Shown one piece after another: positions 3,471 through 31,604 of a stretch of 64,000 nt of DNA (position 1 is the stretch's first letter; the number at the start of each line of letters is the position of its first letter). The notes under the pieces were generated by a model. That model was not told the DNA's origin. It did not search any database and saw nothing but the letters and a program-made list of their open reading frames with translations. The stretch is from Gemmatimonadetes bacterium 13_2_20CM_2_65_7 (GTDB taxonomy: Bacteria; Gemmatimonadota; Gemmatimonadetes; Gemmatimonadales; GWC2-71-9): contig MNDR01000083.1 in assembly GCA_001915025.1 (NCBI GenBank), positions 1-64,000 of the forward strand, in the 5' to 3' direction. Position numbers and translations under genes: made by a program.

Positions 3471-5477
3471 ATGCGCTTAGGGATCCTGCTCTTACTGTTG
3501 TCAGCTCCGCTCCTCGCTCAGAAACGCGCGATCACGTTCGACGACTACATCGCCCTGAAAGCGGTGAGCGACGCGCAGCTGTCACCGGACGGCAAATGGG
3601 TCGCGTACACCGTGTCGACTCCCTCGCTGCAGGACAATCGCAACGTGGCGCGCGTATGGGTCGCGGAAGTGGCGACGGGGAAATCGCGACAGCTCACTGG
3701 GGGTCCGGGATCGGATCGCCAGCCGCGCTGGTCGCCGGATGGGAAGACGCTCGCCTTCATCTCGACGCGCGAGGGAGGCGCGCAGGTCTGGTTGCTGCCG
3801 GTCGCCGGCGGTGACGCGCGGAAGGTCTCGAGTCTTGCCGAGGGCGCATCGGATCCGTTGTGGATGCCGGAGGGGAAGGGGCTGCTGGTCACGAGCGACA
3901 TCAAGTGGCCGCCGTCGCAGGAGATCGATCAGCGGAACGGGCAGTATCCGACCGACGCGCGACTGTGGACGAACCTCATGTGGCGCCATTGGGACGATTG
4001 GCGCGCGGGGAAGCGCCAGCATGTTTTCCTGGTGGACGTCGCGACCGGCAAGGCGACGGATCTGACGCCGATGGATCACGACGTCCCGACGATTGCAACG
4101 GGTGGCGACGGCGACGTTGCGGTCTCACCTGATGGACGCACGGTGGCATTCGCGATGCACGGTGACTCGGTCGTCGCGGACAATACGAATGTGGACATCT
4201 ACCTGATGGGTAGCGACGGCTCAAACATCCAACGGCTCACGACCAATCCAGGCGCCGCTAACACCCCACGCTTCTCGCCCGACGGGAAGCTCTTCTCGTA
4301 TCTCTCGATGGAGCGCGCGGGATTCGAAGCTGACCGGCAGCGATTGATGTTGCTGCGACGGACGGACGGAAGGACGGAAAGTGGGAACGCGATCGAAGCG
4401 ACGACGGGATGGAATCTCTCCGTTGGCTCGTACTCCTGGTGTCCGAATGCAAAGTGTGTCTACGCGGTCGTGGAGGACCGCGGCCGCGACAATATCTATC
4501 GTATCGAGATTCCGTCGTTCCGGCGTTCCGTCGTTGTCTCGGGAGGCGTGAACACCGGAGTTCAGGTCGGGCCCGACAGCCGCACGCTCGTCTATCTCCA
4601 TCAGAGCAACACCCAGCCGCCTGAGGCCTGGGTTTCGGGGAAAGCGCTTTCACACCAAACCGATTCGGCCGTCGCCACACTCGATCTGCCGCCGCTCGAG
4701 GCGTTCGGTTTCATCGGCGCGCTGGGCGACTCGGTATTCGGATGGATGCAAAAGCCGCCCGCGTTCGATGCCACCAAGAAGTATCCGCTCATCTACCTGA
4801 TCCACGGCGGACCCCAAGGAGCCTGGACAGACTACTGGGGTGGCCGCTGGAACTATCAGCTCTTTGCCGCGCGCGGGTTCGTCGTGGCGGCCGTGAATTT
4901 TCACGGCTCAACCGGTTATGGACAGAAGTTCACCGACGCGATCTCGAAGCATTGGGGCGACTACCCGTTTGAAGACCTGATGAAAGGGTTGGACGTCGTC
5001 GCACGGTTGCCCTATGTGGACTCGACGCGGATAGGCGCGGCGGGGGCATCTTATGGCGGCTACATGGTCTACTGGATGGCGGGCAATACGAACCGGTTCA
5101 AGGTGCTGGTAGATCACGATGGCGTCTTCAATCCCGCGAGCATGGCCGGATCGACAGAAGAATTGTGGTTCACCGATTGGGAATTCGGCGGACCGCTCTA
5201 TGCCAATCGCGCGCTGTACGAGCAGTGGTCGCCGCTGAACTTCGTGAGCAACTGGAAAACACCGATCCTGATCGTTCATTCCCAGCTCGACTACCGCGTC
5301 GATTTGTCCGAGGGCTACCAGGCCTTCACGGCGGCGAAACGGATGGGACTCGACGCGAAGTTCCTGTACTTCCCCGACGAAGGACACTGGGTGCTGCGGC
5401 CGCGGAATCGCCGCATCTGGTGGGGCACGGTCCTCGACTGGCTGGAGGTGCACCTGCATGAAAGCGCTCACCCGTAA
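3471..5477 (+). CDS. S9-family prolyl oligopeptidase / acylaminoacyl peptidase
   Basis: Signal peptide, TolB-like beta-propeller repeats (QLSPDGKWVAYTVS), Ser nucleophile GASYGGYM, His DEGHWVLRP. Confidence 0.92.
   Translation: MRLGILLLLLSAPLLAQKRAITFDDYIALKAVSDAQLSPDGKWVAYTVSTPSLQDNRNVARVWVAEVATGKSRQLTGGPGSDRQPRWSPDGKTLAFISTREGGAQVWLLPVAGGDARKVSSLAEGASDPLWMPEGKGLLVTSDIKWPPSQEIDQRNGQYPTDARLWTNLMWRHWDDWRAGKRQHVFLVDVATGKATDLTPMDHDVPTIATGGDGDVAVSPDGRTVAFAMHGDSVVADNTNVDIYLMGSDGSNIQRLTTNPGAANTPRFSPDGKLFSYLSMERAGFEADRQRLMLLRRTDGRTESGNAIEATTGWNLSVGSYSWCPNAKCVYAVVEDRGRDNIYRIEIPSFRRSVVVSGGVNTGVQVGPDSRTLVYLHQSNTQPPEAWVSGKALSHQTDSAVATLDLPPLEAFGFIGALGDSVFGWMQKPPAFDATKKYPLIYLIHGGPQGAWTDYWGGRWNYQLFAARGFVVAAVNFHGSTGYGQKFTDAISKHWGDYPFEDLMKGLDVVARLPYVDSTRIGAAGASYGGYMVYWMAGNTNRFKVLVDHDGVFNPASMAGSTEELWFTDWEFGGPLYANRALYEQWSPLNFVSNWKTPILIVHSQLDYRVDLSEGYQAFTAAKRMGLDAKFLYFPDEGHWVLRPRNRRIWWGTVLDWLEVHLHESAHP
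4358..4389. repeat. Octad array in S9 peptidase CDS
   Basis: ACGGACGG ACGGAAGG ACGGAAAG TGGGAACG. Confidence 0.65.
4510..4541. repeat. Octad array in S9 peptidase CDS, opposite orientation
   Basis: TTCCGTCG TTCCGGCG TTCCGTCG TTGTCTCG. Confidence 0.7.
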
Positions 5478-26770: not shown

Positions 26771-27442
26771 ATGCAACGGTCACCGCTGACACTCCTGCTC
26801 GTACTCAGCGCGGTCCAAGGTCCGGCGACACGCGGCGCGCACGTGACCGGCAGAATCGTGATCCTGGAGAAGGACAACAAGCCGTCGCCCGATCTCGACG
26901 ATGCGGTGCTGTATCTCGAGGGAAACGCCGCCGCGCCGGTCAAACCGGTGACCGTCGAGATCGCCATCACGGACAAGACGTACGCGCCGCATGTGGTGGT
27001 CGTCCCCGTCGGATCGACGGTGCGCTTTCCGAATCACGATCCCTTCAATCACAACGTCTTCTCGGTCAGCGAGCCGAATCAATTCGACCTCGGCCTGTAC
27101 GGCCGCGGTGACGCCAAGAGCCATACGTTCACGAATCCGGGACTCGTGCGCGTGTACTGCAACGTGCATCCGCGCATGGTCGCCTACGTGCAGGTCATGG
27201 CGAACCGGTACTACGGGCAGCCCGGGACCGACGGCAGCTTCACGATCGACAACGTCCCGGCGGGCCGATATCGGCTGCACGTCTGGCACGAGCGCATTCC
27301 AACGGAGATCGTGCGGGACGTGACCGCAGGTGGCGATTCCACCGTGCAAATCGCGCTGAACGCTCGCGGCTACCACTGGGAACCACACCGTAACAAGTAC
27401 GGACGCAACTATCCCACCAATGCCGGACGCGAGCGCTACTAA
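26771..27442 (+). CDS. Cupredoxin/plastocyanin-like protein with carboxypeptidase-regulatory-like C-terminus
   Basis: VRFPNHDPFNHNVFSVS...VYCNVHPRMVAYVQV; GSFTIDNVPAGRYRLHVWHE. Confidence 0.82.
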   Translation: MQRSPLTLLLVLSAVQGPATRGAHVTGRIVILEKDNKPSPDLDDAVLYLEGNAAAPVKPVTVEIAITDKTYAPHVVVVPVGSTVRFPNHDPFNHNVFSVSEPNQFDLGLYGRGDAKSHTFTNPGLVRVYCNVHPRMVAYVQVMANRYYGQPGTDGSFTIDNVPAGRYRLHVWHERIPTEIVRDVTAGGDSTVQIALNARGYHWEPHRNKYGRNYPTNAGRERY

Positions 27443-29450
27443 ACCGGCGTTCGGGCTCACCGCAAAGATCTTTCTCGCCTCGACCCTGCTGGTCGTGGCA
27501 GTGCTCGGTGTCACGTTTGGCCTCACGTCCATTCAGGCGAACCGCACGGCGGACGCGTCGATTCACCGAGCCCTCCTGGCCACGCGCCGCGCGGTCGACG
27601 ACTATCTGGCCGCGCGCACGCGCACGCTGAGCCGCGCCAGCACCGTCGCCACCGACGTGCCCCAATACCGCCAGCGGCTCCTGAACCAGCGGGATCGTGC
27701 CGAAGCACTCGATCAGGCGGACGACGTGCGCGGCCTGATCGGCGCGGCGTGGGTTTTAGTGACGAACAGCGAGGGGGTTCTCATCGCGCGCACCGACTAC
27801 CGGGAGCAGTACGATCGGGACCTGTCGGTGGCGCCGCTCGTCGCCAATGCGCTGAGCGGCGATCAGACGAGCGGCGCGTGGCTCGATGACGTGCAGGGAA
27901 CGATGTTCATCGCGATCGGGACGCCGCTGCGCGACCGTCCCACCGCGGCGCCGCTCGGCGCCCTGGTTGCGACCTATCAGATCGACGATTCGCTCGCCCA
28001 GGCGATCAAGCAGACCACCAATTCCGACGTGGTGTTCTTCTCGCTCGACACGCTCAATCGGCCGGTCGTGGTCGGCAGCACGGTTCCCGCGCAGGAGATC
28101 GGTCCGGTGTTACGCGACGCGGTCCGCGCCGAGTCGCTCGCCGCCGACACGGGTGGGGCGGGCATGGCGCTCGTTGCGTCGATGGGTGGCCAGCATCTCA
28201 TCGGCCTCGCGGGCGCGATCCGTTCCCCGGGCGGGGACGTCAGAGGCGGCTTTGTGGCGCTCCGCTCGCGCGAGGCGGAGCTGGCGGCATTCAATGCGCT
28301 GCGCCGCACGATGTTCTTCGCGATTGGGTTGGGGATCGTGCTGGCGCTGGTCTTCGCGTTCGTGCAGGCGCGCCAGATCAGCGGGCCGGTCCGGCGACTC
28401 GCGCTGGCGACACGGCAGGTGCAGGACGGCGACTACAGCGTCAACATCGACGTGAAATCGAAGGACGAGATCGGGGTCCTGTCACAGGCGTTCAAGAGCC
28501 TCGTCGAGGATCTGAAGGAGAAAGCGGCGCTGGTCGATTACATGATGGCCGCGTCCGGCGCCGCGGCCACGCAGCCGCTTGCGTCCGTCCCGACCGTCAT
28601 CAGGGACGCGGCCGGCGGTCAGATGCGACCGGGTGCGGTGTTCGCCGGCCGCTACGAGGTGAAAGAAATCCTCGGCGCGGGAGGAATGGGCGTCGTATAT
28701 CGCGCGTTCGATCGCGAGCTGCAAGAGCCGGTCGCCATCAAGACGCTGAGGCCGGAAGCGATGGCGGGCGGCACAGTCGCGCTCGATCGCTTCAAGCAGG
28801 AAATCCGCCTGGCGCGCCGCATCGCGCACCGCAACGTCGTGCGCACGTACGATCTCGGCGAAGTGAATGGGACGTACTACCTCACGATGGAGTACGTCGA
28901 AGGCACGTCGCTCAAACAGCTCATCGCTTCGCGCGGACGGTTACCGGTCGCCGTGACGTTGACGGTCGGCAAACAGTTGTGTCGAGCGCTCGAAGTCGCC
29001 CACGCCGAAGGCATTATTCACCGCGACATCAAACCGCAGAACATGGTCGTCGATCCCAGCGGTTTTCTGAAGGTGATGGACTTCGGTATCGCGCGGCTCG
29101 CCAATCCGCCCAAGGGCAAAGGGCTGACCGAGGCGGGGATATCGATCGGAACTCCCGATTACATGTCGCCCGAGCAGCTCTCCGGCGCCGATCTCGATCC
29201 ACGCAGCGACCTCTATTCGGCGGGTGTGGTGCTGTTCGAGTGTTTGACTGGCCGTGTGCCGTTTGAAGCAGACACGACGTGGGCGCTCGTCGCGAAGCAT
29301 CTGGAGGAGGAGCCGCCCAATCCGCGCACACTCAACGCGGACGTACCGGAGGCTCTGGCGATAGTGATTCTTAAGGCGATGGCAAAGGATCGTGAGAAGC
29401 GATTCCCGACGGCGGCGGAGATGTTCGACGCCCTGGCGCGCATCGGCTGA
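27420..29450 (+). CDS. Membrane sensor Ser/Thr protein kinase (periplasmic Cache-like domain, TM, HAMP, C-terminal Hanks kinase)
   Basis: TM1, extracytoplasmic region, TM2, HAMP-like GPVRRLALATRQVQDGDYSVNIDVKSKDEIGVLSQAF; kinase motifs GAGGMGVVYRA, AIKTL, HRDIKPQN, DFGIA, GTPDYMSPEQ. Confidence 0.9.
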   Translation: MPDASATKPAFGLTAKIFLASTLLVVAVLGVTFGLTSIQANRTADASIHRALLATRRAVDDYLAARTRTLSRASTVATDVPQYRQRLLNQRDRAEALDQADDVRGLIGAAWVLVTNSEGVLIARTDYREQYDRDLSVAPLVANALSGDQTSGAWLDDVQGTMFIAIGTPLRDRPTAAPLGALVATYQIDDSLAQAIKQTTNSDVVFFSLDTLNRPVVVGSTVPAQEIGPVLRDAVRAESLAADTGGAGMALVASMGGQHLIGLAGAIRSPGGDVRGGFVALRSREAELAAFNALRRTMFFAIGLGIVLALVFAFVQARQISGPVRRLALATRQVQDGDYSVNIDVKSKDEIGVLSQAFKSLVEDLKEKAALVDYMMAASGAAATQPLASVPTVIRDAAGGQMRPGAVFAGRYEVKEILGAGGMGVVYRAFDRELQEPVAIKTLRPEAMAGGTVALDRFKQEIRLARRIAHRNVVRTYDLGEVNGTYYLTMEYVEGTSLKQLIASRGRLPVAVTLTVGKQLCRALEVAHAEGIIHRDIKPQNMVVDPSGFLKVMDFGIARLANPPKGKGLTEAGISIGTPDYMSPEQLSGADLDPRSDLYSAGVVLFECLTGRVPFEADTTWALVAKHLEEEPPNPRTLNADVPEALAIVILKAMAKDREKRFPTAAEMFDALARIG

Positions 29451-29672
29451 TTACATCCGCTTTTTCTTTTTCAGCAAGTGCATCGTGGCGCTGTCGTTCC
29501 CCCGCGCCATCTCACCGCCCGGCATCGTGTCCAACATGCTGTCGGCCTTCATGGGGTTCTTGATCATCGCGGAGTCAGCCGGCGGCATCACCGTGCGGTC
29601 GGCCATGTCGCGATTCTTGCGGCACGCCAGTGCGGCAACGACGATCAGGAGCGTCAGACTCCGCCGAACCAT
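29451..29672 (-). CDS. Small Met-rich lipoprotein (73 aa)
   Basis: MVRRSLTLLIVVAALACRKNRDMADRTVMPPADSAMIKNPMKADSMLDTMPGGEMARGNDSATMHLLKKKKRM; lipobox LAAC-like; overlaps upstream gene by 19 nt. Confidence 0.65.
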   Translation of the reverse strand: MVRRSLTLLIVVAALACRKNRDMADRTVMPPADSAMIKNPMKADSMLDTMPGGEMARGNDSATMHLLKKKKRM

Positions 29673-30358
29673 GGGTATCCCTGATCCTCCCAGTAGCCGC
29701 CGGGCCGTTGGGCGGTGAACGTCATCGAGACGAGATACTTCGTCAGCTTGTAGCCGAGTTTCGTGGGCGAATAGAGTCGCAGTGGCGCGCCATGGGCCGC
29801 TGGGAGCGGATTGTCGTTCATGCCGTACGCCAGGATCGTCTGCGGATGTATCGCGCTCGCCAGATCCCAGCCGTTTGAATAATCGGAATCGAAAGAGACG
29901 AACCGTATGAAGCGGGCTTCGGGCAGCGGGTCGCAGCGCTCCACGATCGTCGAAACGGGGACGCCGTGCCAACTCGCGATGGCGGACCACCCCTCGACAC
30001 AGTGATGCTTGACCGTGTAGGTCGTCCGCGGCAGCGCCTGCAAATCGTCGAGTGAGAGTGACATCGGCCTGCGCACGAGCCCAGTGACGAGCAGCCGCCA
30101 CGTTGCCGGATCCTTCAGCACGGGCGTCATCGGCGAGATGAAGTAGCTCGGTAGATGCGCCGTGCGCTCCGAAACCGGATACTGCGGCGCGAGCCGATGT
30201 GCGGAGAACAGAATCTTCTCGCCCACCCAGTCGTTCAGGCGACTGACGTCGAGCAGCGCCGGCCGAATGGCGTTGCCTCCATCCCAGCCACACGCGGCCG
30301 CGAGCGACGCCGGGCCCGCGCCGGCGGCGAGCCGGAGAAAGCCGCGGCGGTCAATCAT
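29654..30358 (-). CDS. Molybdopterin-dependent oxidoreductase, sulfite oxidase / MsrP (YedY)-like, Tat-exported lipoprotein
   Basis: MIDRRGFLRLAAGAGPASLAAAC (Tat motif plus lipobox); YTVKHHCVEGWSAIASWHGVPV Moco-Cys motif. Confidence 0.85.
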   Translation of the reverse strand: MIDRRGFLRLAAGAGPASLAAACGWDGGNAIRPALLDVSRLNDWVGEKILFSAHRLAPQYPVSERTAHLPSYFISPMTPVLKDPATWRLLVTGLVRRPMSLSLDDLQALPRTTYTVKHHCVEGWSAIASWHGVPVSTIVERCDPLPEARFIRFVSFDSDYSNGWDLASAIHPQTILAYGMNDNPLPAAHGAPLRLYSPTKLGYKLTKYLVSMTFTAQRPGGYWEDQGYPWFGGV

Positions 30359-31058
30359 GGCTGGGGAATCGGCCGCGATACCAGCCGGTGATCATGGCGC
30401 GCAAGGATGCTGGGTCGACGACGAACACGAGGAGCACGTGAACGACGAGAAATGCCGTGAAAAACCACACCGCCCAGAAATGCCAGTACCGCGCTGCCTG
30501 GAAGCCACCGAAAAGGGCCGTGAGCCAGGAGAGCTGCGTCGGTTTGTAAATGGCAAAGCCGGTGAGTACGGAGAGGGCGCCGAGAAAAATGATGAAAGTG
30601 TAGGCGAGTTTTTGCAGTGGGTTGTGCTTGCCTTGCGCGGGATGTTCCTTCCGCAGCCGCAAGTAGTACTTCTGCATTTCGATTGCGCCGCGAATGTCGC
30701 GCGGCCGGAACAACAAGGATCGCCACTCCCCGCTGGTGACGAGATACGAGAGATAGAACAGACCTGCCGCGATGAACGGCCACATCAGCGTGAAGTGCCA
30801 ATTCAATCCGCCCGCGAGCCAGCCACCGAGGCGGACGGAACGAGGAAACTCCCGATCCTGAAACGGATTGATGTAGTAGGGACCGCCACGCTCACCGAAG
30901 CGCGCGTAGGCGGTGTAAATCTGCAGCCCGCTCGCGACCATTCCGGCGAGCAACACGAACGTCGCCCAATGCGTGAGGCGGACGATCCAGTGATGACGCT
31001 TTACTTGAACGGGAACAGACGAAGCAGGTGCGGCCGGTGGGGCGGGGGGAGCCGTCAT
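30351..31058 (-). CDS. Cytochrome b561-like membrane protein (partner of the molybdoenzyme)
   Basis: VRLTHWATFVLLAGMVASG, YWHFWAVWFFTAFLVVHVLL; four TM helices with conserved His; 8-nt overlap with molybdoenzyme gene. Confidence 0.8.
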   Translation of the reverse strand: MTAPPAPPAAPASSVPVQVKRHHWIVRLTHWATFVLLAGMVASGLQIYTAYARFGERGGPYYINPFQDREFPRSVRLGGWLAGGLNWHFTLMWPFIAAGLFYLSYLVTSGEWRSLLFRPRDIRGAIEMQKYYLRLRKEHPAQGKHNPLQKLAYTFIIFLGALSVLTGFAIYKPTQLSWLTALFGGFQAARYWHFWAVWFFTAFLVVHVLLVFVVDPASLRAMITGWYRGRFPSHD

Positions 31059-31079: not shown

Positions 31080-31604
31080 ATGCGCCTGGCAACGCTTTGC
31101 ATCATTGGAATCCTCTCATCATGTCGGCCCGCACCGCGCGATGCCTACGTTCCGAATCGGAGCGACAGCCTCGCGTTCAATGACATGGCGGCTCACGACT
31201 CGGCGGACAGCGCGCTGCTCACGCCGCGAGTCGTCACGGGCCCGACCGTCATCGTCTTCTGGCTGCCTGCCGCGGACACGTTGAGCGCCGACGATCAGGC
31301 GCAGGCTCTCGACGACCTCAACAATGCCACCGATCACATCGCGCCGATGCTCAAGCGGCACGACATCAAGCTCCTGCCGACGAACGCCGAGACGATCTAC
31401 GTGGCGCTGCCCAATCACCAGCGGCGCACGATTCTGTTGTCGGGCGTCGACTACCCGTTCGGTTACGTCCTGGTAGAGCCGGGGACCGCCGAGCGCATTC
31501 TCGCCGGCGTGTACAACGACGATGAGCTGAAAGACGAGCTCGAAGCGTATTTCGACTTGCCCCCCGGCGCAGATTCGACCGCTACCGGTCCGCGGATCTC
31601 CTGA
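31080..31604 (+). CDS. Hypothetical lipoprotein
   Basis: MRLATLCIIGILSSCRPAPRD lipobox; thioredoxin-like-length soluble domain (GPTVIVFWLP). Confidence 0.6.
   Translation: MRLATLCIIGILSSCRPAPRDAYVPNRSDSLAFNDMAAHDSADSALLTPRVVTGPTVIVFWLPAADTLSADDQAQALDDLNNATDHIAPMLKRHDIKLLPTNAETIYVALPNHQRRTILLSGVDYPFGYVLVEPGTAERILAGVYNDDELKDELEAYFDLPPGADSTATGPRIS

Follow-up and report, generated by a model that had tools for sequence, protein, structure and literature searches.

Introduction

What does a small, methionine-rich lipoprotein do at the end of an operon whose other two genes encode a molybdoenzyme and a membrane cytochrome b? The question is raised by contig MNDR01000083.1 of Gemmatimonadetes bacterium 13_2_20CM_2_65_7, which belongs to a metagenome-assembled genome (MAG) of 2.68 Mb in 101 contigs that is 82% complete. 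A first-pass annotation of a 64,000-nucleotide stretch of this contig (hereafter, the window) had likened the operon to the Met-rich protein and YedY-type reductase of Azospira. In the first part of this report, we describe the three proteins and their relatives. In the second part, we weigh what they may do together. The enzyme–cytochrome pair proves to be of a known type, and the lipoprotein family is the new part.

The Operon and Its Neighbours

On the minus strand of the window, three overlapping genes follow one another in the order cytochrome b, molybdoenzyme, and Met-rich lipoprotein, with an overlap of 8 nt between the first two and of 19 nt between the enzyme and lipoprotein genes (Table 1), and the open reading frames agree with those of the first-pass annotation. 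Wherever a fetched contig extends far enough, the cytochrome b gene lies directly upstream of the enzyme gene. On the cytochrome side, the gene of an unannotated lipoprotein is divergent from the cytochrome gene, with 21 bp between the two start codons, and about 25 Gemmatimonadota loci keep it next to the operon. On the other side, the kinase gene adjoins the gene of a plastocyanin-like protein. The kinase and the unannotated lipoprotein are the neighbours of the operon, and no oxidant-responsive ECF sigma factor or two-component regulator adjoins it in the window.

Table 1. Features of the operon and the adjoining genes in the window.
Feature	Coordinates	Strand	Evidence
Membrane Ser/Thr kinase with HAMP domain	27420-29450	+	Convergent with the operon; syntenic in many relatives
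Met-rich lipoprotein, 73 aa, proposed sacrificial Met-sulfoxide sink	29451-29672	-	ORF, homologues, Met count
Conserved core of the lipoprotein family, DSMLDTMPGGEMARG	29499-29543	-	Homologue alignment
Lipobox Cys17 of the lipoprotein	29622-29624	-	Invariant within the family
Tat/lipobox sulfite-oxidase-fold molybdoenzyme, 234 aa, YedY-like group 1B type	29654-30358	-	Pfam, motif, tree, fold
HHCVEGWS, Mo-ligand Cys120 motif of the molybdoenzyme	29984-30007	-	Alignment
Lipobox Cys23 of the molybdoenzyme (RR..SLAAACGWDGG)	30290-30292	-	Same residue in all phyla aligned
Membrane cytochrome b, 235 aa, Ni_hydr_CYTB/prokaryotic cytochrome b561 superfamily	30351-31058	-	Pfam, invariant His
Putative lipoprotein, unannotated	31080-31604	+	No Pfam match

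The Molybdoenzyme and Its Cytochrome

The enzyme matches Oxidored_molyb (PF00174, 128 bits). Among the curated HMMs, it scores highest on that of MsrP (106.5 bits), followed by SorA (61), SoxC (50), and SorT (45). The MsrP score lies far below the curated cut-off for that model (group 1A, NF003767; 207 bits), on which the reference MsrPs of E. coli and Azospirillum reach 504 and 482 bits. By sequence, its closest solved structure is E. coli MsrP (1xdq), and a predicted model (mean pLDDT 78) has its best fold matches in 1xdy and 1xdq (rmsd 1.7, about 160 columns). The Mo-ligand motif, HHCVEGWS, takes the CVE[AG]WS form of MsrP and is present as CVEGW[ST] in 79 fetched relatives; the corresponding motif of the sulfite-oxidiser references is ECAGNG, QCSGNG, or ECAGSP. 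The tree sets this family, together with its proteobacterial relatives, apart from the SorT/SoxC-type rows with a support of 97; long branches restrict finer statements, and a sister relation to MsrP is not firmly supported. Membership among the sulfite oxidisers SorA, SorT, and SoxC is ruled out by the model scores, the absence of a C[AS]GNG-type motif, and this tree position, and the first-pass view of an MsrP-like rather than a sulfite-oxidising enzyme is borne out by HMM ranking, motif, tree, and fold.

The first-pass annotation had also described the enzyme as a Tat/lipobox protein, and here, too, the alignment agrees: an N-terminal RR and an invariant lipobox-like Cys are found in the enzymes of Gemmatimonadota, Myxococcota, Binatota, and Proteobacteria, and the subfamily is therefore probably lipid-anchored. 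In many of the non-gemmatimonad members, an Asp follows this Cys. In E. coli, an Asp in the position after the lipoprotein Cys is the signal for retention in the inner membrane. Among named relatives, those from soil Gemmatimonadetes MAGs are closest to the enzyme, which is about 37-43% identical to the proteobacterial homologues.

The cytochrome matches Ni_hydr_CYTB, the “prokaryotic cytochrome b561” family (PF01292), with 109 bits against a cut-off of 30.1. Because four of its His residues (30, 88, 193, and 207) are invariant in an alignment of 79-81 sequences, it is suggested that it carries two b hemes. According to a review, YedY-type enzymes are divided into group 1A (MsrP) and a smaller group 1B with a different cytochrome (PMC7759655). 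The partner in our operon is the PF01292 protein and not the MsrQ type of group 1A, and with its 234 aa and Ni_hydr_CYTB partner, the enzyme has the size and cytochrome traits described for group 1B in the Kappler scheme; by these traits, it fits YedY-like group 1B and not MsrP proper. The first-pass suggestion of a b-type rather than an MsrQ electron donor is correct as far as the PF01292 assignment goes, but the cytochrome is not an odd replacement: enzymes of this subfamily have it as their standard partner, including in E. coli and in the proteobacterial MXKDX operons.

Elsewhere in the same MAG, there are two MsrA proteins and a single other PF00174 protein, encoded on contig C86, which was considered as a second copy and rejected as a YuiH-like enzyme whose gene adjoins a lipB-like gene. 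Neither a canonical MsrP nor an MsrQ was found in this MAG (82% complete).

A New Family of Met-Rich Lipoproteins

The mature lipoprotein contains nine Met in 57 residues, or 15.8%, against a window background of 1.8% (binomial p = 8e-7). The first-pass annotation had credited its mature part with about ten Met; the richness stands, but the tenth is reached only when the start Met is counted. A signal-like N-terminus and the lipobox Cys predict its export. Neither a Pfam family nor a solved structure matches it, a search with the single sequence gave few hits outside the window, and a plasmid collection contained no match to a homologue. The family came to light when the stretch 3' of the enzyme gene was read in 80 loci: homologues lie directly 3' of the enzyme gene in L076, L085, L089, L094, and L106, and L064/L010 has one with a frameshift. 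In L064 (genome G028), the homologue at 1634-1885 seems to be frameshifted near the C-terminal part, which appears to be decay or an assembly error.

In all members, RxM comes after the invariant Cys, and a further Met, the core DSMLDTMPGGEMARG (family pattern LDxxPGGEMxRG), and LLKKK are shared as well. The mature homologues have 6-10 Met in 57-58 residues (10.5-17.5%, six members). Three of the Met columns are invariant, and the remaining Met drift while the total stays high. Pairwise dN is smaller than dS throughout the family, indicating purifying selection. Because homologues with dN < dS are present in at least five other genomes, the reading frame is, on this comparative evidence, a real gene, and the Met enrichment on which the first-pass interpretation depended is kept in homologues under purifying selection. 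A chance origin of the enrichment is rejected by the binomial probability, by the conservation of Met in homologues, and by the enrichment of Met-rich frames in the neighbourhood of the pair (see below). The lipoprotein was also compared with the MXKDX/MrpX peptides (TIGR02953), and this assignment was rejected: the model gave no match, and an hhalign profile comparison gave a probability of 1%. As judged by these searches, it is a previously unnamed, sparsely distributed Gemmatimonadota family that is unrelated to MXKDX and is described here for the first time.

Among 395 sampled Gemmatimonadota genomes, seven have a strong match to the lipoprotein and 129 have the enzyme; all seven carriers are among the 129 (hypergeometric p = 3.5e-4), and in 7/7 of them the lipoprotein gene lies directly 3' of the enzyme gene. 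Most relatives keep the cytochrome and enzyme genes without it. In the tree of the enzyme, carriers occur as a clade of four and three scattered lineages, a pattern that requires four changes and is best read as an ancestral lipoprotein that was then repeatedly lost. In L055, L067, and L070, for example, the stop codon of the flanking kinase gene abuts that of the enzyme gene, with no lipoprotein between them; in the window and in L076, the lipoprotein occupies a gap of about 200 bp between these two genes. Because the lipoprotein is absent from most enzyme-bearing relatives and seemingly frameshifted in G028/L064, the enzyme does not need it.

Unrelated Met-Rich Proteins Beside the Same Pair

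In 787 kb of DNA around the fetched pairs, we looked for small open reading frames whose N-terminus is signal-like and whose Met content is 7% or more. There were 12, and 11 of them lay on the same strand as a pair and within 800 nt of it (actually about 110 nt), which amounts to an enrichment of about 50-fold next to the pair (11 near, 1 far); even the twelfth belongs to the same cluster as a pair. In L049-L128, genome-contig loci that were found by enzyme homology alone, the Met-rich frames are adjacent to the pair in 6/6 cases. These partners are of at least four unrelated types. The homologous pairs of Proteobacteria adjoin pentapeptide MXKDX proteins, ECF sigma factors, NrsF/DUF1109, and MsrA/MsrB, or else a two-component system.

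Several single loci deserve mention. In L094, a second, unrelated Met-rich lipoprotein (5068-5325; about 14 Met in 85 aa) is encoded directly upstream of the cytochrome gene, and in L114 (Binataceae), a Met-rich exported DUF6799 protein (845-1156) has the same position. A directed search among Gemmatimonadota yielded two further cases. In the gemmatimonad genome G282 (L151, 593-1772), an ECF sigma factor, an anti-sigma factor, and an MXKDX-like Met-rich protein are divergent from the pair; judged by its predicted genes, this is the proteobacterial MrpX-type layout outside the Proteobacteria. Another gemmatimonad genome, G393, has a protein related to the MXKDX-like one of G282 near its pair. 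In L085 (4707-5270) and L089 (4514-5089), the gene immediately upstream of cytochrome b encodes a cytochrome P460 lipoprotein; the N-terminal linker of this protein bears Met and is Met/Glu-rich in L089, and the protein is a possible extra electron partner.

What Might the Operon Do?

The gene structure, the protein families, the conserved cofactor ligands, the linkage, the conservation of Met, and the kinship with the proteobacterial pairs are observed. On this basis, we infer the direction of electron flow, Met-sulfoxide as the substrate, a sacrificial role, and lipid anchoring of the products, as follows. The cytochrome b would draw electrons from the quinol pool and pass them to the lipid-anchored molybdoenzyme, which, as a YedY-like group 1B enzyme, would reduce Met-sulfoxide. 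The Met residues of the anchored lipoprotein would react with reactive chlorine or oxygen species that reach the envelope, and the oxidised residues would be regenerated by the molybdoenzyme. The lipoprotein would thereby fill the role of MrpX/MXKDX as a different, membrane-tethered family. Because of the precedents in uropathogenic E. coli (UPEC), Brucella, and Azospira, we consider such an envelope Met-sulfoxide cycle, with the lipoprotein as a regenerable sacrificial sink, to be the most likely function, and our confidence in it is somewhat better than even. The Azospira analogy of the first-pass annotation accordingly survives in part: the tight linkage, the recurrent Met-rich partners, and the oxidant-resistance arrangement of UPEC speak for it, but the lipoprotein is only sporadic among enzyme-bearing Gemmatimonadota.

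Against the sink cycle stand the lack of the lipoprotein in most enzyme-bearing relatives, the lack of an oxidative-stress regulator next to the operon in the window, the modest identity to the proteobacterial enzymes, and the core LDxxPGGEMxRG, which exceeds the needs of a pure Met reservoir and also allows a docking role. The pair might then carry out general envelope Met-sulfoxide repair, in which the lipoprotein would serve to hold or tune the enzyme as an accessory or docking subunit, and its Met would be incidental. The core, the lipobox Cys, the fixed position next to the enzyme gene, the three invariant Met positions, and the dispensability of the lipoprotein in most relatives are all consistent with such a subunit, but its Met count remains high even though most Met positions shift, and unrelated Met-rich proteins fill the same neighbourhood elsewhere; we regard this alternative as unlikely. 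It is quite improbable that the enzyme instead oxidises a small sulfite-like sulfur compound, sending electrons through the cytochrome to quinone, in a process unrelated to Met repair: the sulfite-oxidase fold permits it, and SorA structures rank close behind MsrP in the fold comparison, but the motif is the CVE of MsrP, the enzyme stands apart from the SorT/SoxC-type rows, and Met-rich partners recur, with MsrA/MsrB beside the proteobacterial homologues. Met-rich exported proteins can bind Cu(I), and a syntenic plastocyanin-like protein gene lies two genes away, but a lipoprotein that binds Cu(I) through Met thioethers, in an operon for copper-linked oxidative stress, is the least credible reading, because His is nearly absent from the protein, there is no Cys other than that of the lipobox, few of the Met stand in close pairs, and the stress linked to the MrpX/MXKDX analogues is hypochlorite or peroxide.

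To return to the sink cycle, it would carry a sacrificial-Met defence familiar in Proteobacteria over to soil bacteria that are common and uncultured. Since the Met-rich partner varies while the cytochrome–enzyme pair stays, it can be argued that Met content itself is selected. We further speculate, as a possibility that is on balance doubtful, that the lipid-anchored group 1B enzyme and its cytochrome b generally serve, in several phyla, as the place where evolutionarily unrelated Met-rich exported proteins dock, and that the anchored gemmatimonad Met sink, with LDxxPGGEMxRG as its recognition core, is a substrate-specific client of the enzyme. The conserved core makes a specific enzyme–client interaction testable. 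Operons with Met-rich peptides have been called “MsrPQ homologues”; at least in E. coli, their enzyme is a distinct one with a lipobox and their b-type cytochrome does not belong to the MsrQ family, and an MsrQ-like electron supply should therefore not be assumed for them.

Comparison with Known Systems

SorA, SorT, and SoxC have the sulfite-oxidase superfamily fold in common with the gemmatimonad enzyme, which differs from them in its Mo-site motif, its weak scores on their HMMs, and its separate place in the tree. The nearest characterised enzyme is that of the E. coli MsrP–MsrQ system (YedYZ, group 1A), which shares the fold and the CVE[AG]WS motif, whereas the enzyme described here is shorter, bears a lipobox, and has a cytochrome of another family and another gene order. 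With respect to regulation, the sigma-F regulon of Caulobacter contains a YedY gene (PMC3511200), and a 2012 paper on Bradyrhizobium EcfF mentions neither a cytochrome b nor a molybdopterin enzyme.

In UPEC, c3566 (cytochrome B), c3567, and c3568 (Met-rich peptide) are co-transcribed in the OrhKR regulon, and mutants that lack c3566 or c3567 survive tert-butyl hydroperoxide less well (PMC8550376). Loci of this layout on an E. coli plasmid (L140) and on the chromosome of ATCC 25922 (L148) carry the same enzyme family as our operon; we infer that they correspond to c3566-c3568 from gene order and annotation and not from the sequence of CFT073 itself. In ATCC 25922, the annotation marks the chromosomal cytochrome b gene (L148, 326-924) as frameshifted. 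These loci have the same order of cytochrome b, molybdoenzyme, and Met-rich peptide as the gemmatimonad operon, a cytochrome of the same superfamily, and a Tat/lipobox enzyme with a CVEGWSAI motif. They differ in that the enzyme of L140 is about 37% identical to ours, a two-component regulator is adjacent, and the peptide is MXKDX-like and soluble.

The closest functional models are the yedYZ-mrpX genes of Azospira suillum, the model for sacrificial Met cycling (cited in PMC4623255), and bcrXQP of Brucella, which contributes to HOCl resistance (PMC8315932). Both systems are tied to hypochlorite resistance. In the gemmatimonad operon, the Met-rich protein belongs to a lipoprotein family without kinship to MXKDX/MrpX, and neither an ECF sigma factor nor NrsF adjoins. 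What MrpX-YedYZ, BcrXQP, and the operon described here have in common is a small, Met-rich protein, in our case predicted to be exported by its N-terminus and lipobox Cys, that is encoded beside a YedY-type enzyme and a membrane cytochrome (PMC4623255, PMC8315932).
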